This document shows positions 7,174 through 57,714 of a stretch of 64,000 nt of DNA, in pieces. The stretch is from Hygrophila difformis (lineage: Eukaryota > Streptophyta > Magnoliopsida > Lamiales > Acanthaceae), in the NCBI GenBank assembly GCA_030278955.1, contig JAOANR010000014.1, positions 16,184,068 to 16,248,067 of the forward strand, written 5' to 3'. Under the pieces are notes generated by a model. The model did not search any database. It was given only the letters and a program-made list of their open reading frames with translations, and was not told where the DNA came from. Position numbers and translations under genes: made by a program. Within the stretch, counting starts at the first letter, position 1. Each line of letters opens with the position of its first letter.

Positions 7174-7484
7174 TGATAATGGCCAGAAATGACCATTATT
7201 TTCAATCCATTTCCGTGTCTTAAACGGGCATTTGATCGCATTTCGGTCTTACATTAAGTAAGAAAGCAGTCGAATTGGACTGATTTATGCATAATTGTAA
7301 AAATGATAAGCTGGTGTGAAAAGGCATAAATATGTAATTTTGTTACATATTTATGTTAGAAAAATCCAAAAACATGAGAAAAAGAAAAGAAAAGAAAAAG
7401 GAACAAAAAGATGGGAAAAAGAGAAAAAAGCCCACAAAAAGAATATTTTCGGACCATCCGGCCCAATCCAGCAGGTCCAGGAAC

Positions 7485-7740
7485 ACCTTTGTCGCGGAAG
7501 CCCCTTTGTCGCGATGCATGGTTCCGCAACAAAGGCATGTTCCGCGACCAAGCAACCCAGATGAAGAAGGAAACCAGCCAAGCCCCTTTGTCGCGATGAC
7601 CCTTGTCGCGATGGCATGCTCCACGACAAAGGCATGTTCCGCGACCAAGACACCCAATTAGAGACACCAGACCCAGTCGAGAAGCTTTGCCACATGCAGC
7701 ATGTTCCGCGACCAAACTTGATGCTCCGAGACAAAGCTGT
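7485..7740. repeat. Palindrome block upstream of the TATA box, TE-C LTR
   Basis: Half-units and imperfect dyads are built from TTTGTCGCGG and CCGCGACAAAG, for example around 7488-7560 and 7590-7650. They are less perfect than those in 8471-8990. Confidence 0.7.
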
Positions 7741-7806
7741 GATGTGTGTGATGTCTTGAGACACAATGGGCTAGAATCAAGGCCCATGGGCTTAGGGTTA
7801 CACTTC

Positions 7807-7814
7807 TATAAATA
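7807..7814 (+). promoter_or_regulatory. Putative TATA box of the TE-C LTR
   Basis: TATAAATA lies between the two palindrome blocks, at the same relative place as TATA boxes in the TE-D, TE-E and TE-G LTRs. A pyrimidine/AG-rich leader follows. Confidence 0.6.
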
Positions 7815-8470
7815 TGAGATGTTTCCCATGAGCAAGGGTTGGATTTTTGTTGATTAGAGCTCTCTTGAAGGCAAAGCAGTAGGAGTTCTCTCTTAGGTAG
7901 TGTAGTTTAGATTTATTTTCATGTATTATTTAATTATTGCCCTTAGTTTAGTTTAGTTTAGTGTTTATCTTAATATTTCACTGTTCGCAGTGATCTAGAT
8001 AGCCACTTTTATACCATGTTTTGGTTTCTAAACTCTTGTTTTAGGGTTTGTAGTACCCAAATCATGGGTATTAACAACACCCCTTCAATAATATGGGAAA
8101 ACATTCATCATTTGTGTCCCAAATCATGAAATGGGTCTCACACCCCATGGATTTATGCTTTCTTTTTCATTTTGGGGTCATTTGACCCCCATTATGTTAT
8201 CTTTATGTTCACTGTTAGCATTTTATGGATAATGTTGTGTGTATGTGTGATCAAACCCTAGATTAGGATTCTTGCTTTATTTTTAAATTCTGTCCAGCTT
8301 TATTTATTTTTGCTCAAGCATGTTCTTCCTTATTTAGAATGTTTCTTGTTTGTTTTTAGCTTAGAATAGCTTTTTGATCTGAGATAGGGTGAGATCACGC
8401 TGTTTGCATGCCACTGTTCATTTCTGCTTTTTCTGACTTTTGTCCTGAACCACCTTGGTCGCCAACCGCC

Positions 8471-8990
8471 TTTTGTCGCGGAACCACGTTCCGCGACAAA
8501 ATGGTTGTTCCGCGACAAAGGTGTCTAAAGACACTTGTCTCCATAATTTAAAACCCTTTGTCGCGGAACACCTTGTCGCGGAACCACGTTCCGCGACAAA
8601 ACTTTCCATGCATAGCGACAAAGGAGCCAAACTCTTGCATTTTGTCTGCATGGCTTTTTGTCGCGGAATAATCTTGTCGTGGAACCACGTTTCGCGACAA
8701 AATCTCATTCTGAGACAGAAAAATTATGCCGTGTTCTTATTTCTTTGAACACTTTGTCGCGGAACCACGTTCCGCGACAAAATTTTCCATGCATAGCGAC
8801 AAAGGATCAAATGCTTTAAACTTTCTGAAAATCCTTTGTCGCGAAACACCCTTGTCGCGGAACCACGTTCCGCGACAAAATCCTGCTTAGCGACAAAGAG
8901 GCGTTATGCTGCCAAAAATTCTAAAAACTTGTCGGGATACCCATGTCGCGGATCTCGGTCTGCGACAAAATTTATGATATCGCGACAAAG
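8471..8990. repeat. Main palindrome array in the TE-C LTR (TTTTGTCGCGGAAC arms)
   Basis: At least five dyads are present, near 8471-8501, 8572-8602, 8671-8701, 8757-8787 and 8853-8883, with a diverged one near 8943. The best have 14-base arms TTTTGTCGCGGAAC around the loop CAC and are perfect inverted repeats. The diverged units (GTCGTGGAAC with GTTTCGCGAC) still pair if G-U is allowed. Single arms lie between the full units. Confidence 0.9.
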
Positions 8991-10914
8991 ACTCCCTTCT
9001 CTTTATTTAATCTCAAACATTCTTCATTCTCCTCCTATATTATATTGCATCACTCACATCATAACCCCACGGGTTAAGGTGTAACATTCTGGAATTGCAA
9101 TATAGGGTGTTATGCTGCCCAAATTTTGATTCTCCATTTGCATCGCTTAATTAATTGAACCCTTGAGTCATCAGTGATTAAAGATTGAGATTAGCAATAA
9201 TTACACATCACTAATCATCATGATTAAAGGACCTTTGTTCAATTGCCATTAAAACACTCCTCTATAAACAAAACCTTGATGGCTTAAGCAGATAATCCGG
9301 ACTGTAATTAATTATGGTAGGAGGGATTATTTTAGATCATCAATTGTGGACGCAATCCACAACCTTGCATGAGAAACCAACGTCTCTCATACAAGGAAAT
9401 TTCTTTTATTTTGTGTTGATTTTGTCTTTGTGTGTTGTGTGTAACAATTAGTAAAGATTACATCAGACTAATGTTGGCGGGTATTCCCTCATGGATAACT
9501 AGCTCGTAATCTGAGTATTAATTACTAAGTGTTATTTTGCATGGTCTGGATGACTGTCAGTGGAAGCCTTGGCGGTTCGCCCATCCGGGGTCATAATAGC
9601 TGCTCGACTGACTTCCATCCAGATACAGTTTATTCTTCTTATCTTAATTTCCAAACCCAAATTCCAATCTGTAATAGGAATCAGTTGACATCAGTCAATG
9701 CTAACTGATGATCATTATAGAAAAGAAGCATGTAGGTCTTTATCCGAATTCACAGGCAGTGAAGGCCCAACTGGTACTGACACTGCTATTATAGGGTCTA
9801 AGCTGTCTAAATTCGCTCCATCCGAGTAATTGGGAAATTGGACAGTAGATGTTTACAATCCACCCGATTATTCTGCCATTACTTTGGTCTCCTGACCACT
9901 TCATATCTGTGTTTCACCTTCTGTCTAGACCCGCATCTATATTTTGGGTCAATTAATTTTACACTTCCCTATATCTTTATGCATGATAATATTATGTACT
10001 ATTGTGGTCTGTAATTATTTTGGGATCCTTCCCTTGGACAATAGAAGTCTAGATCTTAAACAGATATTGTGTAATAAATTTCCAACAAAAATCTCTTTAT
10101 AAAATCCGGATCTGAGTAAGGGATAAATTCCTCAGTTATGACTAATTCATATTCTGTCGAGGATTGTATTTTGGGAAATTAGAAGCAGATTCAGCGATTA
10201 GGTCTCACTTAGACTGAAAGGGGTCTGTGTTTTAACTGAGAGTCTAGTACCTCTTTAGGGAGTGATTTTCAAATCCTTTATTTTCCAAAATTGATGTGTA
10301 TTGGGAATTTAGTCTTAATTAACACACCGAGATGGGATCCACTTGGATTCAAATACAGTGTGTTAGATAATTCTAGAGGAACAATACATAGGCCTTGGTT
10401 ATTTTCTAAGATAGGGTTGAGTTTTCTTTCAACTGCTATCCTCTCCTGCCAAAGCCTATTTTTGAGTCCTGGATGAGTGCATCTGAAACGAACTGATTAA
10501 TTAGTTCGTTTCAATAGTTTGTATCTCATAACCACCCGGAAGGAAGTGAACACACATGAGGTTCACCAAGAGCCGTGAATTCTTGATCCATACCCCTTCA
10601 CCCTGATGGGGAGCTGTCTTTTACTACCAGGGTTAGATTTTCAAAACCTCCGAGTGATAGGTTTTAAATGCTTTCTTTACTGCTTTCTTTTAATCGCTTT
10701 CATTAGAGGTCACTCGGTTGTATTGAGAGTTGCGTAACTGCTACTAGGATTGACAGTTAAGGGATAGTTTAGGGCTTAATTAGAATCTTTGGGTGTGACA
10801 TGGGGGAATGATAGTAGTACTTGGCATTTCAATAAATGATATGTCGGGTGTTGCTTTTCCACCACAGATGAAGTAACACACCCAGGCCAGGGCAGTTACG
10901 AATCTGTGGTATCT

Positions 10915-12868
10915 TAGAATCTGTGGTCTTAAGAACATGTAAACTCATATTGTAAGTACCTGTCTGTTAAAGGGAAAGCATTATTGAGAGCATGAGAATT
11001 AGCTGTCTGATAGAATTATCCCAAACAAAGATCTGTGTATAAAAATGGAAGTTTAATACTGCTATATCTAAATCTTGTCCAATTTTCATTCTTTTCTTCC
11101 TGTCCCCTCTGTCTACATTGTGATTCAGCTTCACAGCTAGCACAATGTAAATTTTCCCTGCTTTCATAGATAATGTTTATCGCATGTTTTAGAATAACTT
11201 TACCCGCTTTCTAGGATAGATTTATTCGCTTTGTAGAGTAATTTAAATGCTTTAAATTCTAGTTTAAATTCATGCCAGTAGTTATTAATCACTTTTCAAA
11301 CCCATTGAGCAATACGAATGGAAAATCTAGTAAAACGACGTGGGCCCTGCTTCTATCGCACATCCTCCAGTGAACGATCCGGTCTTACTATAAATTACTG
11401 CAATTTTTGACATCGTGCGCTTTCGGGCCACAGTTTCTTAAACACGAGCAATAAAAACGTGACAACCTATAAATATATCCCTAATCACAACTCCGCCATC
11501 AGAAATTGGTTTCATTAAATAAAATCTAAACCAGGATCATGATTTTTTTCGGAAAATACTCATGTAGTGGAAATCTGTCAAAAGTTTCATGGCAGGGAAT
11601 CTTATGGCAAGAATTGATGAGAAGTATCATGGCACATATGCCGGGGACCCTCAGTGTGACAGGCTGAAGGTCAACCTATCCCGGCTGTACCATGAGATTT
11701 GTCAACAGTTTCATGACAGAGAGGACCACAGCGCCATTCGAAATTAAGGCACCACACTTGAGTAATAAAAAGAATAACAATCTTGATATATCCCTAAACC
11801 CCTTCCCGTGAATCACAACTCTTTTCATTTAGTAAATCTAACCTGGTATAATTTAAGAAAATGCCCGTGTGGGAAATTGTCAAAAGTTTCATGGAATCTG
11901 TGGTATTAAGAACATGTAAACTCATATTGTAAGTACCTGTCTGTTAAAGGGAAAGCATTATTGAGAGCATGAGAATTAGCTGTCTGATAGAATTATCCCA
12001 AACAAAGATCTGTGTATAAAAATGGAAGTTTAATACTGCTATATCTAAATCTTGTCCAATTTTCATTCTTTTCTTCCTGTCCCCTCTGTCTACATTGTGA
12101 TTCAGCTTCACAGCTAGCACAATGTAAATTTTCCCTGCTTTCATAGATAATGTTTATCGCATGTTTTAGAATAACTTTACCCGCTTTCTAGGATAGATTT
12201 ATTCGCTTTGTAGAGTAATTTAAATGCTTTAAATTCTAGTTTAAATTCATGCCAGTAGTTATTAATCACTTTTCAAACCCATTGAGCAATACGAATGGAA
12301 AATCTAGCAAAACGACGTGGGCCCTGCTTCTATCGCACATCCTCCAGTGAACGATCTGGTCTTACTATAAATTACTGCAATTTTTGACACCGTGCGCTTT
12401 CGAGCCACAGTTTCTTAAACACGAGCAATAAAAATGTGACAACCTATAAATATATCCCTAATCAGAACTCCGCCATCATAAATTGGTTTCATTAAATAAA
12501 ATCTAAACCAGGATCATGATTTTTTTCGGAAAATACTCATGTAGTGGAAATCTGTCAAAAGTTTCATGGCAGGGAATCTTATGGCAAGAATTGATGAGAA
12601 GTATCATGGCACATATGCCGGGGACCCTCAGTGTGACAGGCTGAAGGTCAACCTATCCCGGCTGTACCATGAGATTTGTCAACAGTTTCATGACAGAGAG
12701 GACCACAGCGCCATTCGAAATTAAGGCACCACACTTGAGTAATAAAAAGAATAACAATCTTGATATATCCCTAAACCCCTTCCCGTGAATCACAACTCTT
12801 TTCATTTAGTAAATCTAACCTGGTATAATTTAAGAAAATGCTCGTGTGGGAAATTGTCAAAAGTTTCA
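10915..12868 (+). repeat. 977-base tandem duplication at the 3' end of the TE-C LTR
   Basis: The segments 10915-11891 and 11892-12868 repeat in tandem with offset 977, and the copies differ at only a few positions (for example G/A near 11334 and 12307). Both end in GTCAAAAGTTTCA, the LTR terminus, so the LTR end itself was duplicated. Confidence 0.9.
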
Positions 12869-14755: not shown

Positions 14756-15057
14756 TGATAATGGTCAAAATTGTCCATTATTTCCAATTTATTTCCGTGT
14801 CTAAGATGGACATTTTGATCGTATTCCCATCTTATTTCAATAAGAAAGCAGTTGAACTTCACAGATTAATGCGAGTTTGTAAAAATAATGAGCTGGTGAA
14901 GAAAAACACAAAAGTATGCAATTTTAATTGTATTTGTGTTAGAAAAATCCAAAAACATGAAAAAAGGAAAAATAAAAGAAAAAGGAAAAGAAAAGTTGGG
15001 AAAAAAATAAAAAATCCCACAAAACTGGAAATTTGGTTAAGTATTGAAGGATGATGT

Positions 15058-15615
15058 GGTCTATAATATGGATGCGGTTTAAGACCGCATACATAGAAAA
15101 GACCGCATCCCCGAAGAAGAAGCCAAAATTTGGTTAAGTGTTGGAAGCAGATGCGGTCAATGCAATGCGGTCTGTCCGATGCGGTTTAAACCGCATCGCT
15201 TTGATAGACCGCATCGCATCTAAAAGACCGCATCCCAGAAAGAAGCTCAGAAATCAACTAAGTGTTGGAAGAGATGCAGCATTGCCTAATGAGGTCTACT
15301 CGATGCGGTCTAGACCGCATCAAGCCAAAAAGACCGCATCGATTGAAGAAGCAAGGAACCAAGCTCAGGAGGAAAAGAAGCAGAAATTGGCTGTGTTGAA
15401 AATTGATGCGGTCTACTCAATGCGGTTTAAACCGCATCGATCCAGTTAGACCGCATCCCAGCCAAAGACCAAGGAAGAGAAGACTGAATGAGATGCGGTA
15501 AATCCAATGCGGTCAATCCAATGCGGCCAAACCAATGCGGTTTAGACCGTATCGACCTCATAGACTGCATCAACCTCATAGACCATATCGAATTCAAATA
15601 ACCGCATCTCAGAAG
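15058..15615. repeat. Palindrome array in the TE-D LTR (GATGCGGT arms)
   Basis: There are several dyads with arms GATGCGGT and ACCGCATC. The centre is TTTAAA (15179-15198 and 15419-15439) or TCTAGA (15302-15321), and both are self-complementary. Single arms GACCGCATC are interspersed. Towards 15540 the units decay. Confidence 0.88.
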
Positions 15616-15698
15616 GACAGATCTGGATAAGACTGTGCAACACGTGATAAATGCATGCTCCTGTTTACCTAATGGGCCTAGAGTTTTGTGAGAAAGAG

Positions 15699-15706
15699 TA
15701 TAAAAG
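15699..15706 (+). promoter_or_regulatory. Putative TATA box of the TE-D LTR
   Basis: TATAAAAG lies directly downstream of the palindrome array, followed by a leader with AGAGAGAG-type sequence. Its placement matches the TATA boxes in TE-C, TE-E and TE-G. Confidence 0.65.
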
Positions 15707-16626
15707 GTATCTCTTCCACCACTTCAGGCGAACTTTATCCATTCAGACAAAAAGGAAGTACAAAAAGAGAGAGCATCTTCAGTTCTCACCCACTAAGGGT
15801 TAGGTAGGTAGTGTAGTTTAGATTTATATTTTTCTTGTATTTTAGTTCAGTTTTAGCTTATCTTAACCATAGATTAGTTGTAAAATTCTTGTTCTTACCT
15901 TTTCAGAATAGCCATTACCATACATTTTAAAGCTTTTTAGTTAGAACAAACTCAACCTTCAAATAATGGGTGGTTTTGGGTTATTTATCATGCTTTCAAG
16001 TGTTTTAATACAATGAAAAATTCTAGAAATGAGTTTTTGACTGATGTATTTAGACACTATTTAATGCTTTCCTAGTAATAAATGTGTAGAATGTTTGTTT
16101 TAAAATGGAAGTTTGATTATTGTTTCATCTGAATCTTGTCCAATCTTCATTATTTTTTCTTCATGTCCCTTCTGTCACATTTTAATTATGTTTTTAGATA
16201 GTGTAACTGATTTTACATGTTTTCTTAGAATAAGTTTAATTGCTTTCTAGAATAATTTTGATGTGCTTTGTAGATTAACTTTATTGCTTTCATAATCTAG
16301 TTTAAATTATGTCAAGTAGTTGTAAAACCAAACTCAAACTTGAATCGGGTAACCAAGTGGAAAATCTTATGAAACGGTGTGAAACCTGCTTCTATCGCAC
16401 ATCCTCCAGTGAACGATCCGGTTTACTATAAATTACTGCAATTTTTGACACCGTGCACTTTCGGCCCACAGTTTGCTACACGAGTATATAAAAACGTGAC
16501 AACCTATAAACATATCCCTAATCCCAACTCCATCTTCATAAATTGGTTTCATTAAATAAAATTAAATCGGGATTATTTTCTTTCAAAAAAAAAAACTCGT
16601 ATAGTGGGAAATTGTCAAAAGTTTCA

Positions 16627-16644
16627 TGGCGTCGTTGTCGGAGA
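16627..16644 (+). other. Degenerate PBS of TE-D (Athila/Tat type)
   Basis: TGGCGTCGTTGTCGGAGA differs from the intact PBS of TE-G (TGGCGCCGTTGCCGGGG at 53017-53033 on the minus strand) mainly by C-to-T changes and one G-to-A. This pattern fits cytosine deamination in a silenced element. Confidence 0.8.
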
Positions 16645-17440
16645 ATTACGTTAATAAATGTTTTTTGTTCGTTTGTCTGTTGCCTTGCAAGTTGAGCTGA
16701 AAAGTGTATATTTATATCAATAGGGAAATATGTGAAAACAAACAAAGTGCTGCCAATTTTTCCCTGACATGGTTTTCCCTAATGCTTTGTGTGTGGCATT
16801 TATGTGTAGAAAATGACAGAGTTGGTAGGATAGAGTATTTTGTAAGTGTTTTACTTGCACATTTTGGGATATGTGGGGAATCAACAAGTGAAGTAAACTT
16901 TTTGCTCACTTGGGATTACCCATTCCCAAGCAAAAAAATCAAATGGGGACCACTCACTCCCCAATTTTATTAAATAAATAAGTCAACACTCTTTATAAAA
17001 ATAAAAATAGTGTGTGGTGTTTATTTTCTTCTCTTCTTAGTCCATTGCATCATGCTCTATTATTATATGTGTCAACTATCTTGTGCACTCACTCATCATT
17101 CATGAGCATCAACATTCCATACCACATTCACATTTTCACAATCACTTTGGGAATGATTAAAAATAATAAATCCCTTTTGTAGGCTCAATAGCCTATAAAA
17201 ATTCTATCTCTTGGTCTCTTGACCACTTGAAAAATCGTTAGACTATTTTTTTAGTCTAATAAAAATTTGTAAGGGTCCAAGACCTTTATTTCTCTTCTCT
17301 TTTGTAATTATTGGTTACTACAATAATGTTAGATTTAAGAATCTAGCTTCATATCATATTATATTGTATCTTCATAAAGTCAAGTAAAACCAATTAACTC
17401 ACATTAGAGCAAAGCTCAAAATGCGAGGATGTTGATTTTC
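16645..17440 (+). mobile_element. TE-D leader/spacer, homologous to the spacer flanking the F-box gene in TE-G
   Basis: Several blocks match the reverse complement of about 44475-45070 in TE-G: GTCATTTATGTGTA-like sequence near 16795, TTTGTAGGCTCAATAGCCT at 17177-17195, and GGTCCAAGACC near 17275. The likeness continues up to the place where the F-box ORF starts in TE-G. Here it is followed by AATGCGAGGATGTTGAT, a PPT-like sequence. No coding potential is evident. Confidence 0.6.
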
Positions 17441-17520
17441 AACTTGAATATTATTTTATTAAAAAGTGCTAAAAATATTCCTGTCTTATCTTCTTCAGGG
17501 ATAAACAGATTATAGATTCC

Positions 17521-18258
17521 ATGATGTGCCTACCGAAAACAACTCCAGACCTTGCCTTTTTGGAAATAGAGGAAATGAAAAAGGAAATAGGCGAGTTCAG
17601 ATGGGCCCTGGGAGGAGAATTTGAATTAGTAATGGACCACCAGATTGACTTCAGATTTGAAATGAATGAGCATTGGTGGAGAGATATCCCAGAGGAGGAG
17701 AGAAATCATAAAGCCCTGGGGCTAGAGAGGGACTTCTGCAAGCATTTATGAAACTTTTGGGATCAAGACTTCAATTATGCAAGGAATGATCAGAAGTTCC
17801 CTCCACACGTACATTACGAGAGAATGGTCCGGAGAATGAAAGAGATTAAATGCCGACGGATCCGAATGCTCGAACAAGCACTGGGAGACAATCAAATGGC
17901 AGCGTTCGAGCCGATTCTGATACCGCCAGGGAAAACACTAGGAGGCAATATGTCAGACATGTCCCTCTAGTACAAAAAGTAGCATCGACTGGAGTATTCT
18001 CCATGGCGGATGCTTTTCCATTCATGTTCAAGAAAGAATTGTATGACAATGGAACCGTCTGCGGACCTCAAGAGCAGCAAAGGCTCACAGAGCAAGCCAA
18101 ACTACGCCATACATAGATGGCATTCAATTTGTGGGCTGCTGCCAATTCTAGACTTCGGGATGAAGAACAACTCTCCCATTCTGGACATGCTCATCGAACG
18201 TACAAAAGCAACGAGGAAACTTTGGGATGATTATACCAAAGCATGGATTGCTGAATGA
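17521..18258 (+). pseudogene. Broken ORF of unknown function, part 1 (TE-D internal)
   Basis: Open segments in changing frames (17521-17751, then about 17760-17970 and 17850-18116) look like decayed coding DNA. The first starts at an ATG and has an acidic, tryptophan-containing stretch of 76 residues ending in a stop. Later segments contain a MADAFPFMFKKELYDNG-like run. I do not recognise a family. Part 2 continues at 23977 beyond the inserted solo LTR. It could be the gag-like or lineage-specific ORF of a non-autonomous Athila-type element. Confidence 0.4.
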
Positions 18259-22299: not shown

Positions 22300-22307
22300 T
22301 ATTTATA
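22300..22307 (-). promoter_or_regulatory. Putative TATA box of the TE-E LTR
   Basis: The minus strand reads TATAAATA between the two palindrome blocks, matching the arrangement in the TE-C LTR. Confidence 0.6.
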
Positions 22308-27090: not shown

Positions 27091-27095
27091 TCGGG

Positions 27096-43676: not shown

Positions 43677-44474
43677 CTACCCCTGGAAAAAGATCCTGGT
43701 CCAGTGGACAAAGTTCGTTAGGCTACAGGGTACGCAGTAGTCTCCCATGTCTTCCTCATCTTCCTCCATTACCCTTGTGCAGTAGACTCTTGGTCCTTGG
43801 TTCCCAAACAGGTCAGGGGTCTCCAGGCTTTCAGCCAGCCATGCGAAGACATTGGTCCCTATATATGTCATGACGAACCTGTTTGTTATGATCTTGTTTA
43901 TCATTGACACCCCCTGCTGGACCTGTTCATTATCCAGCTTGCTGAGCAGCATGTATCCCCTGACAAAGATCGAGGCCTTATGGTTGTCCTCAATCCCTTC
44001 CTTTAGCAGCTCACAAGCCAGACTTTCGTTTCCTGCTCCGAATGCCTGCAGAGCTGGGATGAGTTGGAGGTTGTAGTTGCCAGCTTCTTCGCACTTGACC
44101 AGGAGTGCCTCCTTTTGCAGTTCAACCCTTTGTTCCCACATCTTGACGATGGTGGTCTCCAGTTCACATCTCTTGTAGACAATGGGAAGGTCAGCTGCAT
44201 CCCTGAGTTTGGTACACACCTCTCTGACTCTCCATACTTTCTTAATGGAGTCCTCTCCGATGCGGGAAAGGATTTCTCCTAGGAGCTCTACTGGTAGATC
44301 CAGTAGTTGGGTCCCTTCCTCGTGATCTTCATTTTGAATTGGGGGAATGATGCCTCTGGAAAGACATGGAGAAATGATTAGGTCTGAAACCCTCAGCCTT
44401 ACACCTTCAGCCACCTCAAAGTATAGTTCGCTTGTTATCACCTGTCTTACTTGAGGTACACTATGAAGGTCCAA
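43677..44474 (-). pseudogene. F-box protein gene sequence carried inside TE-G, 5' incomplete
   Basis: This open frame of about 265 codons has an F-box at about residues 57-105, beginning LLDLPVELLGEILSRIG and followed by VREVCTKLRDAADLPIVYKR. The C-terminal half resembles plant F-box proteins with Sel1-like/TPR-like segments: an EAGN motif, a GYMLL stretch, and Cys residues near the C-terminus. F-box proteins bind SKP1 in SCF ubiquitin ligases and choose targets. No ATG precedes the F-box: the frame opens after a TAA and the first codon is a TTG, so the 5' end is missing or another exon is lost. It lies on the element strand, downstream of pol, where other Athila-group elements may carry an env-like ORF. 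No intron is apparent. Capture of a host gene is inferred; whether it is expressed is unknown. Confidence 0.75.
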
Positions 44475-46890: not shown

Positions 46891-49725
46891 TTATTGAGCA
46901 TAAGCCGGTTCTGTTGTCATTTGAGCTTCTTTTTCGGGATCGAACTGCCCAAGATACTCCTTCAATCTGTGTCCATTCACTACCAGCTCTCCTTTGTCAG
47001 TTCGGATCCTGACAGCTTCACTTTCAAACATGTGCACCACTTCGTATGGCCCTTCCCATCTGGATTTAAGCTTTCCGGGGAACAACTTCAACCTGGAATT
47101 AAATAACAAGACATTCTGGCCAACATAGAAGTGTTTAGACTTAATACGACGATCGTGTAACTTCTGGGTCCGCTCTTTATAAATCCTCGAGCTTTCATAA
47201 GCTTGCGCACGTATTTCCTCAATTTCATTGAGGTCCAACTTGCGCTTACTCTGAGCAACTCGTGAGTCAAAATTGAGCGTTCGTACGGCCCAGTAAGCCT
47301 TATGCTCTAGTTCTACGGGCAAATGACAGGCCTTTCCGAAGACGAGTCTGTATGGAGACATCCCAATGGGAGTCTTGAATGCAGTGCGGTATGCCCATAA
47401 AGCATCATTGAGCTTACGTGACCAATCTTTGCGAGTTGTCCCCACAGTGGCCTCGAGTATGTGTTTGATTTCGCGGTTTGAGACCTCGACTTGACCAATG
47501 GTTTGGGGATGGTAAGGCGTGCCGATCTTGTGGAGAATCCCATTTTTGCTCATAAGATTTGCAAATGCTTTATTAACAAAATGGGTTCCGCCATCTGATA
47601 TGATCACCCTGGGTACACCAAATCTGTTGAAAATGTTATTTTTCAAAAATTTGACGACCTGGTTGCCATCATTGGTTGGCAGTGCAACGGCCTCAACCCA
47701 CTTGGAAACGTAATCGACAGCTACCAAGATGTAATGGTTCCCATCAGATGTCGGGAATGGTCCCATGAAGTCAATACCCCATACATCGAAAATCTCGAGA
47801 GTGAGAATTCCTTGTTGAGGCATCTCATCCCTCTTGGAGATATTCCCTAGTCTTTGGCATCTGTCGCAAGCTTTAACAAACGCTTTGCAATCCTCGTAAA
47901 TGGTAGGCCAATAAAAACCGCACTCGAGCACCTTATGGGCTGTTCGAGTGGGGCCATGGTGACCTCCATATTCCGACTCATGGCATTTCTTAGCGATTTG
48001 ATAAGCCTCGTGCTCAGTTACACATCGTCTAATAATCGAATCTGCACAATGCTTGAAGAGATAAGGATCTTCCCAGAAGTAGTTAACTACATCTCGGTTG
48101 AACCTTGCTTTGTGGCCCCTGCTTTGAAATGGTGGAATTATTCCGCATGCTAAAAAGTTAGCAATATCGGAAAACCACGGACAAGCTTGATCATGAAGAT
48201 GCAAGGCAAACAGTTGCTCGTCCGGAAAATTCTCATTTACGGCTAGCTCATTTTTATCATTTTCTAGTCGAGACAAATGGTCAGCAGCACCATTATCTCT
48301 GCCTTTTCTATCTTTTATTATAATGTTGAATTCTTGCAACAAAAGTACCCACCTGATTAATCGAGGTTTGGCGTCTTGTTTGCTAAACAAGTATCTCAGT
48401 GCAGAGTGATCTGTGTACACTGTGGTTTTCGTACCAATAAGATATTGTCTGAATTTATCAAATGCAAAAACCACAGCATACATCTCCTTCTCCGTGGTGG
48501 TGTAGTTAATTTGGGCCTCATTCAAGGCATGACTTGCGTAATGAATTACACAATGCTTCCCTTCCTTATGTTGCCCAAGAACTGCACCCACGGCGAGATC
48601 ACTTGCATCACACATTACCTCGAAAGGCATTGACCAATCGGGTGGTTGCACTATTGGAGCAGAAATCAACATCTCTTTGAGCGTGTCAAAGGCTTGAACA
48701 CACGCTTCATTTATTACGAAAGGATTTTCTTTACAAAGCAAGTTAGTGAGCGGCTTGGCAATTTTAGAAAAGTCTTTAATGAATCTCCGGTAGAAACCGG
48801 CATGCCCTAAGAAACTCCTAACTGCTTTTATTGAATTAGGCAATGGTAGGTTTGAGATGACTGAGACCTTAGCCCTGTCGACTTCGATGCCTGCGCGCGA
48901 GATGCGGTGACCTAACACTATTCCTTCGGTGACCATGAAATGGCACTTCTCCCAGTTCAAAACTAGGTTGGTGTCCTCACATCTTTTCAAAATTTGTGCA
49001 AGATTAGTCAAACATTCATCAAAAGTATCTCCATACACAGAGAAGTCATCCATGAAAACTTCAATGCATTTTTCGATAAATTCTGAGAAAATTGACATCA
49101 TGCATCTTTGAAATGTGGCAGGCGCATTACAAAGTCCAAAAGGCATGCGCCTGTACGCAAAAGTTCCATATGGGCATGTGAAAGTGGTCTTGTCGTGATC
49201 CTCGCTAGCTATTACAATCTGATTATAGCCAGAGTACCCATCCAAAAAGCAATAGAACTCCCTTCCGGCCAACCGCTCCAGCATCTGATCAATGAATGGC
49301 AAGGGGAAATGGTCCTTCCTGGTAGCGGTATTGAGCTTCCGGTAGTCGATGCAAACTCTCCAGCCGGTCACTGGACGCGTCGCCACTTCTTCTCCTTGTT
49401 CATTAGTCGTTACACAGATCCCCCCACGTTTCGGTACGACCTGCACTGGGCTAACCCATTTGCTATCAGAGATAGGATAGATGATACCAGCATCTAAGAG
49501 CTTGATAACTTCTTTCCTTACCACTTCCTGCATATGGGGGTTCAGACGCCTTTGTGGTTGCCTTGAGGGCTTGTACTCCTCTTCCATTAAAATTCTTTGC
49601 ATGCAAACAGAGGGGCTTATTCCTTTTATATCATAAATGGTCCATCCGATTGCATGTACATATTTCTTTAGAATGTCTACCAGAGCTTTTTCTTGTTCTT
49701 GTGTCAGCTTGGCAGACACAATCAC
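46891..49725 (-). CDS. pol: TE-G pol: RT, RNase H, integrase (Athila-type Ty3/Gypsy)
   Basis: This 944-codon frame is uninterrupted. RT has [11 protein letters not shown] (about residue 122) and the catalytic FMDD (about 224-227). RNase H has [11 protein letters not shown] (about 368) and [11 protein letters not shown]. Integrase has the HHCC zinc region (about 578-620) and the catalytic core with Asp in [10 protein letters not shown] (about 650), Asp in SDGGTHF (about 708) and Glu in VEVSNRE (about 745). These enzymes copy element RNA into DNA and insert it. The first codon counted here is GTG and overlaps the gag stop. There is no true start: the frame stays open upstream to about 49855, where pol was probably joined to gag. 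All key residues seen are intact, so decay is recent. Confidence 0.92.
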
Positions 49726-52700
49726 CGGTAATCTTTTATGTTCAGCGAGAAAGACGTACTTAAGATGATCCGGAAGTATTTTAAGTTCAAGCTCTGGTGG
49801 GCATTCAATGGAAGGCAGTAATTTGCGAGAAATGGATGGGAGAGAGAGAGATCAGATTTACCTTCAGGATCCTGTGTCAGTACAGGATCCACTTTCTCCT
49901 CAGCGGTGCTTTCCTCTTCCTCCGGGATGAACTTAACCCCATCGAATTCTTCAAGGTCCTCAGAGAAAGGGTCCTCGAAGTGGACAGCGTTGCAGCTCCC
50001 TGGTTGCTCCGCACCTTCAGGCTTCAGTACCTGTTTTGAAACTTTGTTTGGCTCATCAGTCACAGAGTTTATGCTCTCATCCTCACTCCTACTTTCTATT
50101 ACATCAAATATGGAACAAGATCCCTCATTCGGAAACTTCTGCAGCTGTTCCATGTCAAAGGTGATTTCTTTGTCATCGACCCTCAATGTGACTCTTCCAG
50201 ATTTGGCGTCAATCAGTGCACCGCCAGTGGCCAGAAACGGGCGTCCCAGGATAAGTGGCATTTCAGAGTCCTCTTCGATGTCGAGGATGATGAAGTCAAC
50301 CGGGAAAAGAACTTGACCGGTTTTGACTACCACATCCTTGAGGATTCCTACGGGCTTTGTGATTGATCTGTCTGCAAGCTGCAACTTCATCTTGACTGGT
50401 TCAATCTCCCCGAGCCTTAGGCGAATTGCCATGGCTAAGGGCATCACATTGATGCTGGATCCTAGATCACATAACCCCATGCTCACTTTGGCCTTCCCAA
50501 TCTGTACTGGTAGCGTGCAACATCCAGGGTCTTCTTTCTTTTCGGGCAGTTTCTTCTGAACTATGGCACTGCATGTGCTGTTGAGAACAATCACCTCCTC
50601 CTGCTCTACCTGCCTTTTCCCTGAAATCAATTCTTTCAAGAACTTAGCATAGGTGGGCATTTCTGAAATCATTTCCACAAGAGGAATGGTTATCTCTACA
50701 GACCTTAACCGTTCTAGAAATTTCTTGAATTTAAGGTCATGTTCCTTATTTTTAAGACGTGCTGGGTATGGCACCCTTGGCATGTACTTATTATTGTTTG
50801 TTTTTGGTGGTAAAGAGAAGGAATTTGTACCTTCAACCCTACCCTTTTCAGCTCCCTTTGCAGCTTCAGCCTGCGGAATAGCTGTTTCTGATTTGTCCTC
50901 GACCAGTCCAATACCGTCTCCTCCTTCAATCCTTTCATTTTCTTTTTCACCCTCCACTGGATCCTTTTCCTCCTTGGCCGTCTCTTTTCCATGTCCAACA
51001 ATTCCTTTTAGAGTCTTGCCTCCCCGCAATGTGATTGCTTTACACTGCGGGTTAGCTTCAGTACTGCTTGGAAGTGTTCTTTTCCCCCTGTTCTGCAGTT
51101 CCTTGGCCAATTGGGTGACTTGCGTCTCCACATTCTTGATTGATGACTGCAGTTGTTGGTTTATATCCTTCTGGTTGGCTATAAACTCAGTCATCAAGTT
51201 CTCCAGACGAGATGGTGGCCTTTGGTTATATTGTTGATTTTGATCAGGTTGGGATTGGAAATTCTGGGAATTCTGGCCTTGGTTCTGATTAGGCCTCTGT
51301 TGGATTTGAGGTTGGAAATTCTGATTCTGATTTGGAAAGTTCTGCACTCTTTGCTGGACGAATCCTTGATTCTGAGGTCTGAAGCTTTGCTGTGGGTTTT
51401 GATTTGCGAACTGGTTGGGCTGGTTTGGCTGCAACAAATGCGCATTAAGTGCATTGTTGTTGGAATAGGAGAGATTGGGATGGCGATTTTGGTAGTTCCC
51501 GGCATAATTACAACTCTCGGTAGCTATCTGTTGGCATGTATCAGTTGGATGAGGTCCCTGACACAGTCCATAGACAACTCCCGATTGCTGTGTTTGAACT
51601 TGGTTTGATGAGGTTCCTGCCTGGGAAGCGTCTATTCCCTTCCCTTTATCCTGGCTCAGCTGTATCGCAGCTACCTGTTCTTGCAATTTTTCAAAATCTG
51701 TTTTCCCTTCACTTACAGCAAAGACTTTTCTAGGAGGATCCTCCTTCCTATCATCTGTTTTTAGGATGGATCTGTTGACAGACATTGTCTCAATCTTCTC
51801 CCAAGCTTGGTCCATAGGCAGGTGGAGTAAATGTCGTCCGCCAGCAGCGTCTAACATTGTTCTCCATGGATGGGTGAGTCCTCCGTAGAATTTCCTCAGT
51901 TGCTCCCATGGTGCGTACCCGTGTTGGGGGCATCGCCTGATGAGGCCCAAGAATCTTTCTTTCGCATCATATAATGACTCGTCTGGCTTCATTTTAAAAT
52001 CTCCAATCTTAGCTCGTCCTTCCTCAATCTTTGATTCTGGAAAATACTTCAGCAAAAAGCTCCTCACCAAGTCTGCCCAAGTGCTCCTCTGGTTGATAGG
52101 TAATGACTTATACCAGTCCCTGGCACCACCATATAAAGAAAATGGAAACAACATTAGCCTAATAGTATCAGGAGAGACTCCCTGATTTTTGATCGTGTCG
52201 CAGAGCTCCAGGAAGGTCTGGAGATGATCATGAGGGTCCTCATGATTTGCGCCGCAGAACTGATTGTTTTGCACCAAATTAATGAGTGCCGGTTTCAGCT
52301 CGAAATTTCTTGCAGGAAAGTGTGCTCTCCCAGGTCCATCCAGATAGGGCTCTACTATTGGTTGCATGAAGTCTGCCGCTGCTTGCTGCTGTTGTTGATT
52401 TCCTTGTTCAGCTTGGTTCTGGTACTGTTGGTGGTAATTGGGAAATTGCTGGAAGTTATGTGGATCTTGTGGGTTGTTCTGAAACTGAGCTGGATTGAAA
52501 GCTTGGTTTTGGTATTGTTGGTTTGGTATGTTTTGATTTTGGTGAAATTGGTTTAGGGGTGATGGCGGTTGTTGGTGGAATTGCTGGTATTGTTGCTGAT
52601 TGGGATTTGGTAGATTCTCCTCTTCGTTGGCACGATTAGGATGTTCTACCATTCCTCCGTCAGCTCCATTACCAGGGTTATTTGGTGGTTGGTCTATGGG

Positions 52701-52886
52701 TAAGATCGGGGGAATGTTCTGGTTATCTACCATGTCTGATAGATCGCTGCTCGATGTTTCAGGTGAAGTGCGGGTCCGACGCTCCTGCTCTTTCCGTCTT
52801 CTGGCTTCTGCCCTCAGTTGGCGAGCGGTCCTTTCTATTTCTAGATCGAACGGTAGCTCCGGCGATGTGTTCCTCCTCCGTTGCAT
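49722..52886 (-). CDS. gag: TE-G gag and aspartic protease (Athila-type)
   Basis: This 1054-codon frame starts at the ATG at 52884-52886, about 130 bases after the PBS. It has a basic N-terminus, an Asn/Gln/Pro-rich stretch, and a gag core with [20 protein letters not shown] (about 240) and [20 protein letters not shown]. Then come a zinc knuckle remnant, [14 protein letters not shown] (about 437), more Gln/Asn-rich sequence, and a protease with [12 protein letters not shown] (catalytic Asp about 804). Gag packages element RNA in virus-like particles and the protease processes the polyprotein. The knuckle's first Cys is Tyr (TAT for TGT). The last 40 or so codons are out of frame with pol, apparently after a CT dinucleotide gain near 49845. 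Confidence 0.9.
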
Positions 52887-53015
52887 AAGCAGTTGGTATC
52901 AAGATTTTGACAGTACCTGCACAATCCCCAAGTTAGTGATGGTTTGATAGTATATACAAAAATTATCTGTGAGTAAATCAGGAGCGTAATTCTCCTAGTA
53001 AACGGCGCTGCATCC

Positions 53016-53033
53016 TCCCCGGCAACGGCGCCA
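53016..53033 (-). other. PBS of TE-G (Athila/Tat type, tRNA-Asp-like)
   Basis: The element strand reads TGGCGCCGTTGCCGGGG directly after the LTR end at 53034. This PBS is characteristic of Athila/Tat-group elements and appears intact. About 130 bases of leader (52887-53015) separate it from gag. Confidence 0.93.
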
Positions 53034-55574
53034 TGAAACTTTTGACGAGTTTCATTAACACGAGTAATTTTCTGAAATCTCAAGTGTGGATTTATTAAAT
53101 GAAAAGAGTTATGATGTAGGGAAGGGGTTTAAGGATATGTTATAATTCCCGTTTTATTACTCATGTGGGGTGTTTTAATCTCAAACGGCGCTGTGGTCCT
53201 TCCCGCCATGAAACTTTTGACAAATATCACGGTGCAACCGGGATTGACCTTCAGTGTGTCACCCTGAAAGTCCCTGGTATCTGCGCCATGATACTTCTCA
53301 TAATTTCATGTCACGAAAGCACCTGCCATGAAGCTTTTGAACATCTTCCCACTGTATGAGTATTTTCCCAAAATGTTGTGTTTTTATTTACTCGTGTCAA
53401 GAAACTGTGCTCCCGAAAACGCACGGAGTCAAAAATTGCAGTAATTTATAGTAAGTACCGGATCATTCACTGGAGGATGTGCGATGGAAGCAGGGCCCAC
53501 GTCGTTTACTAAGATTTTCCACTCGGTTACTCGTTTCAAGTTTTGCAAGGTTTTCTAACAACTACTTGACATAAATTAAACCAGATCATGAAAGCAGTAA
53601 AAATTATTCTACAAAGCATGGTAAACTGGATCGAAGAAAGCAATTAATTCTATACTACGAAAGCAATATAAAATTATGCGACACTATCTAGAAAGCAGGT
53701 TTAAATATGACAGAAGGGACAGGGAGGAAATAATAAGGATTGGACAAGATTCAGATGAAACACAATTAAACTTCCATTTTTATACACAGATCTTAGCTTG
53801 GGATAATCCTCTAGTTAGCTAACTCTCATGCTTTCTACACCATGTTCCCTTTAACAGACAGGTACTTATGGTGAGAATTTACATGCTCTTATGACCTCAA
53901 TTTCTAAGATACCACAGACTCACAACTGCCCTCACATGGCCATGCTAAGGCGTATCATTCATATGTGGTGGATAAGCAACACCTAACATATCATTAGTTG
54001 ACATGCCAAGTATTCCTATCATTCCTCCATGTCACACCCAAAGTTTCAAATCATGCCCCAAACCATTCCATAACTCTCAAACCTTTTAAAGAAAGCTGTA
54101 AAGAAAGCATTTAAATCTATCACTCGGAAGCATTAAAAACGTCTCTTTCCGTTAGTATAAAAGAGCCCCTGGTCTTGGTGACCAGATGCAGATCAAGAAC
54201 CCCCGAGATATCAATAAGCCACAGGGCTTACAACATCTGGGTAGTTATGAGATACAAACTAAATGAAACGGATCCATAAATGAACCTATTCCGGATGTAC
54301 TCACTCAAGACTCAATTCTAGACTTTGGCAGAAGAAGATAGTAGTCGAAGGAATACTCGACCTTACCTTAGAAATTCACCAAGGCCTATATGTTGTTCCT
54401 CTAGTATTATTTATCACATCTCATCTACACCCAAGTGGATATTGACTTAATGCGATATCTAATATCAGATTTCCAACACACAACAATTTTGAGAAACCAA
54501 TTGATATCTGAAAATCATTCCCTAGACAGGTACTAAACTCTCAATTAAAACACAGATCCTTTCAGTCTAGATGAGACCTAATCGCTGACTCTGCTTCTAA
54601 GCTCTCAAAATCGACCCCCAGTAAAATGTGAATTAGTCATAACTGTTAAATTTATCCCTTACTCAGATCCGGATTTTATAAAGGAATTTTTGTTGGAAAT
54701 TTATTATGCAGCATCTGATTTAAATAAAGACTTCTGTGTCCAAGGGGAAGGATCCCCAAAATAGCAATAAGACCAGAACATCTACATAATAGTATCATGC
54801 ATACCAGTATATGAAAAGGAAAATAAAACACCCCAAAATATATGGTGGGTTAGACAGAATGCGATACACAAAGATGGATTAGCCTGAGATGAGAAGAAAT
54901 TGGCTAAAAGGGTGCCAGAGATAATTGAGGTTTTCCGGACTGCAAACATCTGTTGTCCGGTTCCCAATTTTCCTAGATGACTGATTTTAGACAAAAAGAA
55001 TTCCAAACAACGGTGACCGCCGTCATTTAGTTTTCTTTTGTCTGTGAGTGGAAGAAAAACCCACATATTTCTTGCTGTAATATGTCTTAACTGATGTTGG
55101 TCGACATCAGTTACTACTATTGCAACTTGAATTCAGGTTGAGAAATTAAGAAAAGGAAAATTGAAACTGTATCTGATTAGGAATTGGCTGAGTAACTAAT
55201 CGAAACTCTTGGTGAAGAGAACGCTCGCCGAAGCTTCCACCAACCACTAACCAGATCATGCAAAATAACAGATAATAATTGACACACAGAAGACAGGTTA
55301 GTCGATATCCTTATGAAGGGACCTTTCACCAACATTAATCTGTGGTGTTTCTCATTATCCGTTCATACACACAACGAAAAGGAAAACTTGAAAATAAGGA
55401 AAATGTTTTTGGTATTGTGCGGGTGTTAAGCACACAATAAGTGGACACTAATGGGTTGAAATGTGTAATGGACAGAAATCAGATGAATTGGGCCCAGGCC
55501 CAATACATCCATGCAACTTACACTAATCATGGAAGAAAAATATTTTTTTTTGGAATTTTCAAAATAAAAGGATA

Positions 55575-56050
55575 GTTCAATTCGAATTATTGGGGTAATT
55601 CGAATTGAGAATGCATGAAGGATGAAGTATTACTTTACCCAATTGATCATTGCTAGAAATTGGAGCATCATCTAATTCGAATTATTGACCAATTCGAATT
55701 AATTCGAATTGGACAACTCGAATTGGCGAAGTCCTTTTCTTGCTCAAATTGACTAAGGCATTTACCTCAAGGGGAAGATGAATTCGAATTGTCCAGCAAT
55801 TCGAATTAATTCGAATTGGACAATTCGAATTGGTAAGAGATGAAGAAATAAACCAAGGCATGAATGGGTGGTATGCAATACAATGTGGTTTCTCATGCCA
55901 ATTCGAATTGTGTGAACCAATTCGAATTAATTCGAATTAGAGAATTCGAATTGGTTGGAAACCACATGAAGAAATTTTTGGTTGTGCAATTCGAATTTCT
56001 TAGGCAATTCGAGATAATTCGAATTGCCTCAATTCGAATTACACATTTTC
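55575..56050. repeat. Palindrome array downstream of the TATA box, TE-G 5' LTR
   Basis: CAATTCGAATT + AATTCGAATTG dyads occur near 55689, 55797 and 55918, with half-units. This is the partner of 40562-41040. Confidence 0.9.
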
Positions 56051-56905
56051 GAACAATAACAATTTTTGTTCTCACAAGTATGGGTTAGGTGTACACTGTG
56101 CGGTTAATGATGGGTTTAGATTTACCAAATCTCTCATCTCACATCAATGTCACTTCACAGCCACCCTAGTGAGGTTTTCAAGAAATAAACAAACACATGT
56201 CCAGTGGGTATTGGCGAGATTCAAACCCTATTTCTACAAACAAAGGATTCAAAGATCAAAGAACCTAAAACATCTAGGTATCTAAGAACTACATGAATAA
56301 ACTAAGAACACTCAAGTTATCTAAGGCAGCATAAAATAAAAATCAAGGCAGGAAAATAAGGCATAAAGGTAAATTCGAACAAACCTAAAAACGTCTAAAA
56401 CCTAAGAACACTTATTTGAAGCTCTAAGGCACAAAATCAAGCCAAAAACCCACCAAACATGCATTTATTAGGTTTGAATGTCAACTAGGACATAATAAAT
56501 GTAACCTAGTTGAAACAAACAAACACTCTAAGCATTTATTTCTAAAGAAAGCATTAAAGAGTGCCAAAACACATGAATAACACCATTTCTGGAAATTTTT
56601 CTTGTATTGACACTTTGAAAGCAAAATAAAGAACCCAAAACCATCATTAGCTTGAAGGTAGGGTTTATTCTAACTAGAAAGCATGTAAAAATCTGGAAAT
56701 GGCTACTCTAAGGGTTACACAAACTGCTTCTACACTATACTAAGATCAAAGCATGTAAAAACTATACTACTTGCAAGAAAAAAATAAACTAAACTAAACT
56801 AAACTACCTACCTAACCCTTAAGGGGTGTGGAACCTCCTGCTGTTCTTGTCCCAGCTGCTTTTTGGTTAAATTCCTGATCTCCTTGCTCTGTTGTGAAAG
56901 GTCTG

Positions 56906-56913
56906 CTTTTATA
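56906..56913 (-). promoter_or_regulatory. Putative TATA box of the TE-G 5' LTR
   Basis: The minus strand reads TATAAAAG between the two palindrome blocks. The corresponding segment is deleted from the 3' LTR. Confidence 0.65.
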
Positions 56914-56989
56914 GACAAATTTTCGAAACCCTAGGCCCACCAATGTTGTGCTCATGCTCCACAGCTTTAATGAGTGAAGTTCGAATTAT

Positions 56990-57380
56990 CTCAATCAATT
57001 CGAATTAATTCGAATTGTGAGACCTCTTCCTTGAGCTGGAAATGTGGCCTTCAGTTATCAATTCGAATTGTTGTGAAGAATTCGAATTGGTCTTTTCTCG
57101 AATTGGATGAGGGTTTCTGCTTGGCCTCTTTGCATATGTTGGCAATTTGAATTGTTTGTGCCAGTTCGAATTAATTCGAATTGGACAATTCGAATTGCAT
57201 CTTCTTCTTGCCTTTGGGTTTCTTCTCTCTTCATTCCCTAATTCGAATTATTCAAGCCAATTCGAATTAGTTCTTCTGCATCCCTTCCCAACACTTAACA
57301 AATTTTTCTTCTTCTCCTCAGCAATTCGAATTACAAGAGCAATTCGAATTAATTCGAATTGCGTAATTCGAATTGGGCTT
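56990..57380. repeat. Palindrome block upstream of the TATA box, TE-G 5' LTR
   Basis: AATTCGAATTAATTCGAATT dyads occur near 56997, 57165 and 57341, with single CAATTCGAATT arms between. It is absent from the 3' LTR because of the 746-base deletion. Confidence 0.88.
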
Positions 57381-57714
57381 CAACACTTAGCCAAAATCCA
57401 GTTGTGGGATTTTCAATCTTTTCCCCATCTTTTTGGATTTTTGTGGGCTATATTATTCTTTTGCCCATCTTTTCATTCCTTTTTCTTTTCTTTTTCCTTT
57501 TTTCATGTTTTTGAATTTTTCTAACACAAATACAATTTAAAATTGCATATTTTGTGTCTTTTTATTACCGGCTCGATGTTTTTACAAACTAGCATTAATC
57601 TGTTAAATTCAACTGCTTTCTTATTACAATAAGATGGAAACACGATCAAAATGTCCGTCTCAGACACGGAAATGGATTGAAAATAATGGTCAATTTTGGC
57701 CATTATCATGTGTC

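Follow-up and report, generated by a model that had tools for sequence, protein, structure and literature searches.

Clusters of palindromes sit beside the promoters of four related long terminal repeat (LTR) retrotransposons in the genome of the plant Hygrophila difformis, and their letters differ between families while the spacing of their arms is largely held in common. The elements lie in a 64-kb stretch (the window) of contig JAOANR010000014.1, positions 16,184,068 to 16,248,067, and we label them TE-C, TE-D, TE-E and TE-G. A first-pass annotation made from the letters alone had drawn attention to the arrays, and the lineage name Athila is taken from it. The feature is real and well organised. 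We argue, with moderate confidence, that the arrays are promoter-associated DNA recognition sites for an oriented oligomeric factor, and that the specificity of this factor and its sites co-evolve.

Each family has its own word

Every LTR family has one half-site of about 10 bp: GTCGCGGAAC in C, GTCGCGAGAC in E, GATGCGGT in D and AATTCGAATT in G. The array units are often four-arm, which we write > >< < for forward (>) and reverse (<) half-sites. There are three array positions in all: in U3 (array 1), in the downstream LTR (array 2) and upstream of an extra open reading frame (ORF), ORF3 (array 3). TE-D has array 1 only, and TE-G carries the identical motif in all three. Half-sites were counted with at most one mismatch, and shuffled LTRs served as controls (means 0-2.4). 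The C motif has 20 matches in the C LTR and none in D, E or G; the E motif has 14 in the E LTR, 2 in C and none elsewhere; the D motif has 25 in the D LTR. The G motif has 32, 21 and 18 in the G 5' LTR, internal region and 3' LTR, and 0, 0 and 2 in C, D and E. Across 24 kb outside the elements the short words fall near chance, with 7 matches for D against 9.8 in shuffles and 7 for G against 3.1, and the D motif occurs 6 times in the G internal region against 4.9 in shuffles.

The first-pass annotation gave each of the four families an array of its own, and the arrays are present where it placed them. The C and E arrays are homologous, however (70% over 230 bp, with a shared core), so the window holds three unrelated classes. 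The constant CAC loop that it described is found in some C and E dyads, but the eight E dyads also have CAA and TA loops. In the C dyads of 40 other loci the loop is 3 nt long in 23 of 23 exact dyads while its letters vary (ATG 8, CAC 6, CAT 4, AAT 4, ATT 1). The observed/expected CpG ratio is 0.86-1.59 in the arrays and 0.49-0.68 in the remaining LTR and the G internal region; the GC content of the G arrays is just 34-37%, and the CpG islands were judged by this ratio. By reading, a CGG-CCG core is present in the C and D dyads and absent from those of E (TCGCGAGAC) and G (AATTCGAATT).

The arrays keep close company with promoters. By inspection, array 1 ends about 30-90 bp upstream of the TATA box, and array 2 starts about 0.66-0.86 kb downstream of it in C, E and G. 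Ahead of the TATA box stands the pattern TGGGCCTAGGGTTT, exact in D, E and G and with one mismatch in C; the three exact matches compare with none in 100 shuffles. It looks like a site II element joined to a telo-box, a combination linked to cycling cells.

One LTR backbone carries unrelated arrays

We searched the host genome (915 Mb) for relatives. When up to one mismatch is allowed, it contains 4,101 copies of the 33-nt start of the LTR, against none for a reversed control. Forty of these loci were sampled, all exact matches to the 33-mer from the 3.8-41.4 Mb part of contig C1, and in 29 a motif 8-mer exceeds the largest of 20 shuffle maxima. By eye 35 of the 40 could be classed: 19 C, 8 H (a further word, TACGACGCTA), 5 G, 2 E and 1 K (ATACATGTAT), with L025, L026, L033, L043 and L046 left unclassed. 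The K-type LTR (L050) holds ACATGTAT 43 times, counting both strands, at an irregular spacing unlike that of the other families.

A single LTR backbone, 80-88% identical over its first 350-480 bp, carries arrays of four classes at nearly equal LTR offsets: C at 1361-1524 and 1336-1477, H at 1332-1415, E at 1313-1520 and G2 at 1315-1490. One H copy is an exception, with its array at 1087-1230. The earlier remark that the arrays occupy comparable places with unrelated sequence is borne out by this. The LTRs are also related at their ends, as the annotation had said. The first 130-270 bp of the C, D, E and G LTRs in the window are 78-88% identical, TGATAATGGYCA opens all five LTRs, and C, D, E and both G LTRs end in GTCAAAAGTTTCA. 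An inverted repeat, ATAATGG...CCATTAT, is conserved at the extreme start of all five.

Some relatives are built differently inside. Four C and H copies (L101-L104) have LTRs of 5.5-5.8 kb and interiors of 2.5-2.9 kb with no sense ORF of at least 110 aa, and the unclassified L105 has the same long LTRs and an interior equally free of such ORFs. We regard L101-L105 (three C, one H, one unclassified) as large non-autonomous derivatives. L106, whose LTR end was not found, and L108, in which the motif was not found, were set aside.

Spacing is kept while letters change

Spacing was counted between neighbouring half-sites (for D and G, pairs under 60 bp) and tabulated where the promoter word was found, which was so at 5 of 8 H, 17 of 19 C and 2 of 2 E loci. 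Overall, >> is mostly 14-17 and << mostly 17-20. In D, >> is 14 in 81 of 106 pairs (18 in 17), >< is 10 in 75 of 100 and << is 18-19 in 108 of 131. The corresponding G values are 14 on the left in 81 of 92 and 17-19 on the right in 111 of 117. H array 2 has >> at 14 or 17, >< at 18 and << at 19-20 (7 of 7 each), and C array 2 has >> at 14-16 (5 of 5), >< at 13 (10 of 10) and << at 18-19 (4 of 4). A >< of 13 is prevalent in array 1 (C 21 of 33, H 4 of 7, E 2 of 3). The outer stem could be scored with equal search ranges in 20 of the 30 window units; the right linker is longer in 18 of these and equal in 2. In one H array, that of L027, five forward sites are spaced by 31, 21, 31 and 21 bp, near whole helical turns, a pattern not repeated exactly at other H loci. 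Spacing is better conserved than letters across families with unrelated motifs, and it is the agreement between families of unrelated letters, not the counts, that carries the argument from spacing.

The letters of a family can move together. At three D loci (L098-L100) GGTGCGG has replaced GATGCGG at the majority of sites, and it has done so on both strands (11-12 GGTG against 5-6 GATG), while GGTG is absent from 13 of 21 D loci; the switch is synchronous but incomplete. The arms also show constraint. Variants shared by at least three copies stand to singletons as 12:73 in arms and 88:187 in spacers (Fisher p 0.0013, pooling C array 2 with G arrays 1 and 2, of which only G array 2 reaches 0.05 singly). 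Shared variants probably reflect change in the source lineages, and singletons decay after insertion.

Paired changes and folding

The central claim of the first-pass annotation was that the arms change yet stay complementary, and this holds within limits: paired changes exceed shuffles, most clearly between motif types and in the G flanks. Among 14 inner dyads of C and E (11 distinct), 93.2% of cells are paired and 8 of 12 pairs have changes on both sides. These dyads contain 22 double-change cells, a number reached in 0 of 500 shuffles, and slid controls give 1-4. For D, three orthologous units were compared in 20 relatives (of 40 scored) plus the window copy. Their double-change cells number 7, 17 and 16, with 113, 0 and 1 of 1000 shuffles as high, so the unit with 7 (unit 15177) is not significant. 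Most of the D changes turn A-T into G-C, in GATGCGG/GGTGCGG, or T-A into C-G, at the centre. In the G units, leaving out three duplicates from the 3' LTR, the flanks outside the core form 26 contiguous pairs against 15.95 when permuted (p 0.0004), and their first six positions form 41 pairs against 32.65 (p 0.02).

Paired changes are rare among near-identical copies: 2 of 132 pairs in C, and 3 of 62 and 1 of 71 in G. This is expected if most of the differences arose after insertion. The C comparison used 20 copies, hand-picked from 40 scored and all usable, plus the window. The G comparison used 23 (20 of 40 matches together with L035, L037 and L044) plus the window, with 23 of 23 usable for array 1 and 22 of 23 for array 2.

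When unit halves are swapped, the units of G (p 0.00005, n=14) and of E (p 0.0002, n=8) are predicted to fold less well, whereas the effect is unclear in C (p 0.063, n=6) and D (p 0.15, n=5); DNA folding parameters leave this picture unchanged. Units that possess both outer arms still show the effect (p 0.0006 in G, n=10; p 0.007 in E, n=6). Subsets show it weakly (p 0.028 for the G LTR, n=6; 0.083 for the G internal region, n=4; 0.042 for one-motif E, n=5), and E inner dyads of a single motif type do not show it (p 0.20, n=5). Left halves pair best with their own partner in 4 of 14 cases in G, 3 of 8 in E, 1 of 6 in C and 2 of 5 in D. Single mismatches in all stems, read on the sense strand, comprise 12 G-U and 16 A-C, so there is no G-U preference overall; taken by themselves, the aligned inner dyads of C and E incline to G-U, with 7 cells. 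In C array 1, across 17 loci, 36 half-sites are forward and 121 reverse. Rfam gave no match at the gathering threshold, and IMG/VR scans for the dyads of G and of C/E and for relatives of pol gave none either.

A presumed second promoter behind pol

The same word also appears inside the element. Behind pol, TE-G has in order an extra polypurine tract (PPT), array 3, a TATA-like box, an ATG and a splice-donor consensus, with a predicted TPR_27/F-box-like exon 1.3 kb further on. ORF3 (43677-45738, minus strand) is apparently an intron-containing TPR_27/F-box-like gene with its own TATA-like box. In profile searches TPR_27 is above the cut-off, and F-box scores 19.9 bits with a cut-off of 20.5. 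A protein search gave 893 candidates, none at E <= 1e-3, in a collection that is perhaps poor in plants. The ORF3 leader holds CTCTCGCGAAAC twice (45783-45814, minus strand), which is like E-type arms though the TE-G arrays are G-type.

An internal region of H type (L107) lies 8.6 kb downstream of an H-type LTR (L052) in the same orientation. It contains pol, the additional PPT and, at 3644-3875, eleven H sites that follow the same grammar, then CACCTATAAATACCCCC, then ORF3; a twelfth H match, at 3246, is set apart from the array. Judging from distance, orientation and motif, the two are probably one H element, its 3' LTR known from the first 40 bases alone. The H motif is in both the 5' LTR and the internal region, and CTATAAATACCCCC stands between array 3 and ORF3. 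In two families, G and, if L052 and L107 belong together, H, the LTR promoter and the presumed ORF3 promoter have the same word beside them. The two ORF3 proteins are 54% identical, and the ratio of nonsynonymous to synonymous divergence (dN/dS) is 0.19 over 215 codons, with dS at 1.97, near saturation. This suggests, with that saturation in mind, a retroelement-borne gene under constraint.

What the arrays may be

We propose that a candidate factor with oriented half-sites of about 10 bp and a fixed oligomeric geometry would bind units of the form > 14-17 > centre < 17-20 <. It would bind upstream of the LTR promoter at array 1, within the downstream LTR at array 2 and, in full-length elements, also upstream of the internal ORF3 promoter at array 3. 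Binding would activate, or shield from silencing, only the element's own family. Array expansion together with palindrome-perfecting template switching would supply and homogenise the sites. A family's letters would then change together, with spacing and dyad symmetry staying, because the specificity of the factor and the sites co-evolve. Among the causes that the annotation suggested, dimer-binding sites fit best. In favour of the proposal are the position of array 1 ahead of a TATA box, the motif shared by separate arrays of one element, the spacing common to unrelated words, the unpartnered half-sites of C array 1, the depletion of shared variants in arms, the fixed length and free letters of the C loops, and the raised CpG ratio. 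The joint switch of letters in D speaks for recognition of sequence.

Several observations weigh against this proposal. The binding factor is itself a candidate only, and ORF3, the sole extra gene recognised, matched no DNA-binding family in the profile search; its single-sequence fold is uninformative (pLDDT, the predicted confidence, of 37). Reading the interiors of C and H copies (L101-L104) showed non-coding derivatives, and the factor would therefore have to act in trans. Complementarity of the flanks, specific to each unit and outside the core, is superfluous for protein sites. The spacing rule has its breaches: of the 67 << pairs in C array 1, 25 are at 19 and 15 are at 15, >> in H array 1 ranges from 19 to 42, G2 has 19, 19 and 10, and K is irregular. 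Common descent of the units in any one array makes the counts pseudo-replicated. The arm/spacer test alone is not significant in C (p 0.19) or in G array 1 (p 0.32).

A rival reading is selection on a nucleic-acid structure, an extended hairpin with an outer stem, an asymmetric internal loop and an inner hairpin, formed as RNA or as a cruciform and serving packaging, dimerisation or RNA stability. The double-change cells of the C/E inner dyads and of two D units agree with it, as do the half-swap effect in G and E, the pairing of G flanks within units and the longer right linker. We nevertheless think it quite unlikely that selection on a fold, which the annotation had raised, is the main cause. 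Many half-sites have no partner, as the imbalance of C array 1 and the order >>>>><< in H array 1 of L027 make plain, and mismatches overall do not favour G-U even if the C/E inner dyads do; a pure hairpin function is therefore unlikely. The half-swap effect is not significant in C and D, the own partner is the best one in a minority of units, one D unit fails its shuffle test and Rfam is silent. Array 1 lies upstream of the TATA box, so it would be transcribed only at the 3' end. We also count the fixed loop length with free letters in C against a pure fold, though a triloop would allow it too. Alternatively the dyads could be mutational by-products, if reverse transcriptase or DNA polymerase switches templates within hairpins and in this way perfects quasi-palindromes and spreads the arms. 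Such switching can create and maintain perfect stems, according to the available portion of PMC8794818. It would explain the unit-specific pairing of flanks and the adjacent paired changes at G array 1 pairs 36/67 and 37/66, and it is a likely source of the perfected flanks. As an account of the arrays altogether it seems improbable: it leaves unexplained the promoter location, the use of one motif in separate arrays, the conserved spacing and the depletion of shared variants in arms. At those two G pairs, moreover, 4 and 5 copies have an unpaired intermediate, so single steps do occur.

A third rival takes the arrays as ordinary enhancers bound by host transcription factors, with a different one recruited by each family. 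The arrays lie upstream of TATA boxes, the Tnt1 BII boxes bind defence-induced factors (PMC3316501), and a database comparison of the Sirevirus palindromes gave mainly sites for stress-related factors (PMC2829016), as far as the available text of both papers goes. We still rate this reading as unlikely. Different host factors are not expected to impose a similar spacing of 14 and 17-20 bp on unrelated motifs, and a synchronous switch in place, as in D, is not expected of them either.

The elements in the window

The coordinates are collected in Table 1. TE-G has a primer-binding site (PBS), TGGCGCCGTTGCCGGGGA, at 53033 on the LTR border, which we take to be of the tRNA-Asp type, an Athila trait. 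The order of reverse transcriptase (RT), RNase H and integrase in its pol makes it a Ty3/gypsy element. Its two LTRs differ at 35 of 3789 aligned sites, so the element is young; 3 of 475 array sites and 32 of 3314 others differ, with no clear difference between them. TE-G and L107 both have an additional PPT behind pol, a feature that the available text of PMC2829016 gives for Athila4 and Calypso. The env-like ORF3 of Athila was not found in TE-G, where the ORF behind pol matches TPR_27, with F-box just below the cut-off.

TE-D has a short, eroded internal region (16627-18272 and 23977-25255). No gag-pol was seen there, and its fragmented ORF pieces match no Pfam family above the cut-off. Its part 16918-17344 resembles the ORF3 intron region of TE-G (44909-44481), with broken ORF pieces behind. 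TE-E seems, from its flanks, to have inserted within this internal region. The tail of the TE-C LTR (10909-12868) is doubled in tandem as a 983-bp unit. Next to TE-C lies a very young element (1-6331) with 100% identical direct repeats of 2389 bp (1-2389 and 3943-6331) and a 1.55-kb interior, which abuts the TE-C internal region at 6332.

Table 1. Elements, arrays and promoter features of the window (positions count from its first letter).
Feature	Position	Strand	Remarks
TE-C 3' LTR	7174-12868	+	holds tandem duplication 10909-11891 / 11886-12868, 98.8%
TE-C array 1 (U3)	7486-7744	+	GTCGCGGAAC and variants
TE-C TATA box	7807-7812	+	follows TGGGCTTAGGGTTA
TE-C array 2	8469-8990	+	six dyads GTCGCGGAAC-CAC-GTTCCGCGAC or variants, plus outer arms
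TE-D 5' LTR	14756-16626	+	followed by PBS-like TGGCGTCGTTGTCGGAGA
TE-D array 1	15070-15610	+	half-site GATGCGGT, loopless dyad
TE-D TATA box	15699-15704	+	follows TGGGCCTAGAGTTT
TE-D TGGGCCTAGGGTTT-TATA stretch	15673-15704
TE-E solo LTR	18273-23976	-	target-site duplication (TSD) GTATC flanks both sides
TE-E array 2	20920-21600	-	eight dyads, types GTCGCGAGAC / GTCGTGAACC / GTTGTGATCC
TE-E TATA box	22302-22307	-	follows TGGGCCTAGGGTTT
TE-E TGGGCCTAGGGTTT-TATA stretch	22302-22332	-
TE-E array 1	22340-22820	-	degenerate
TE-G full element	37961-57708	-	TSD ACACA
TE-G 3' LTR	37961-41949	-	without counterpart of about 56826-57569 (array 1 and TATA)
TE-G array 2, 3' LTR	40558-41033	-
ORF3 predicted exon 2	43677-44355	-	TPR_27 and F-box-like; homologue in H
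ORF3 predicted exon 1	45701-45738	-	ATG 45738, donor GTAAGT at 45700; predicted splicing
TATA-like TTTTTATACC ahead of ORF3	45872-45881	-	H relative has CTATAAATACCCCC at equivalent position
TE-G array 3	45905-46440	-	seven AATTCGAATTAATTCGAATT dyads, directly upstream of presumed ORF3 promoter
Extra PPT AAATGTGAGGATGTTGAT behind TE-G pol	46771-46788	-	letters identical to 3' PPT (41950-41963)
TE-G pol ORF	46891-49851	-	order RT-RNase H-integrase
TE-G gag-containing ORF	49722-52898	-	
TE-G 5' LTR	53034-57708	-	4675 bp
TE-G array 2, 5' LTR	55570-56045	-
TE-G TATA box	56908-56913	-	follows TGGGCCTAGGGTTT
TE-G TGGGCCTAGGGTTT-TATA stretch	56908-56939	-
TE-G array 1 (U3)	56990-57380	-	AATTCGAATT units
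ATAATGG...CCATTAT copies	7176-7199, 14758-14781, 23951-23974, 41924-41947, 57683-57706

Known systems and significance

The first-pass annotation knew of no standard LTR component like this, which overlooks the Sireviruses. Bousios et al. (2010, PMC2829016) describe, in the text available, palindromic RM boxes in these Ty1/copia elements, upstream of the TATA box and of env, that form CpG islands, and they suggest an internal env promoter. Those boxes are likewise family-specific, high-copy, CpG-rich palindromes clustered upstream of the LTR TATA box, with extra clusters upstream of the gene behind pol; here, among the full elements examined, TE-G array 3 and the H element with L107 are the counterparts. 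In maize Sireviruses small RNAs reportedly concentrate on the palindromes, which are described as hotspots of rapid evolution (available parts of PMC5311732 and PMC10760457). The differences are as follows. The present elements are Ty3/gypsy, judging by the pol order of TE-G. They have four-arm units with a polar spacing grammar common to unrelated motifs and one more array on the downstream side of the TATA box, and within a single genome the same LTR backbone carries several motif classes. They seem to have no common CGG-CCG core, given its absence, by reading, from E and G, and Tnd-1 is also without this core (PMC2829016). The available text of that paper describes palindromic promoter arrays as Sirevirus-specific among the Ty1/copia elements compared. 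Our literature search found no report of such arrays in Ty3/gypsy elements, within titles and abstract openings that mostly did not cover subscription journals. The kind is known from Sireviruses; the Ty3/gypsy host, the shared spacing grammar and the several specificities per genome set the present arrays apart.

Other systems share parts of the pattern. The targets of VANC proteins in VANDAL elements are short, arrayed, family-specific motifs in non-coding sequence that evolve synchronously and differ between related elements (available parts of PMC5735166 and PMC10398659). Family-specific arrays in non-coding regions with synchronous turnover are found here as well, with the D switch incomplete. 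VANC, by the same papers, is an element-encoded protein of demonstrated binding, whereas our factor is only postulated. VANC motifs are described as tandem repeats, and the available text of PMC5735166 lacks the string "palindrom", while the present motifs are palindromic. VANDALs are DNA transposons, and ours are LTR retrotransposons. Retand, as far as the available text of PMC11963269 goes, is similar in being Ty3/gypsy with a long region between pol and the 3' LTR, extra ORFs and family-specific repeat arrays. Its ORFs differ in being mostly antisense with other domains (TRP28), and palindromic LTR arrays are not mentioned in that text. The BI and BII boxes of Tnt1 are cis-regulatory boxes of the U3 promoter that bind nuclear factors (available part of PMC3316501), and a symmetric Tnt1 box I is mentioned in PMC2829016. 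Tnt1, unlike the present elements, is Ty1/copia. We know of no four-arm grammar for its boxes.

It is possible, though we consider it doubtful, that the arrays belong to a self-recognition system of this Ty3/gypsy lineage. A fast-evolving factor whose oligomeric geometry stays constant would read a private word at every promoter of the family to which it belongs. Five such words (C, E, D, G and H) at the least, and probably more, would exist side by side in the genome, insulated from one another, and ORF3 would be part of the circuit. If so, the F-box-like ORF3 could steer protein degradation within it. Arrays in Ty3/gypsy elements whose spacing rule outlives the letters suggest a more general device, possibly a convergent one. 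Because several specificities share one backbone, binding assays can directly test how selfish elements keep private control, whether through activation, anti-silencing or escape from small RNAs. Should the factor be found, these families would provide a natural series of matched pairs of factor and site.

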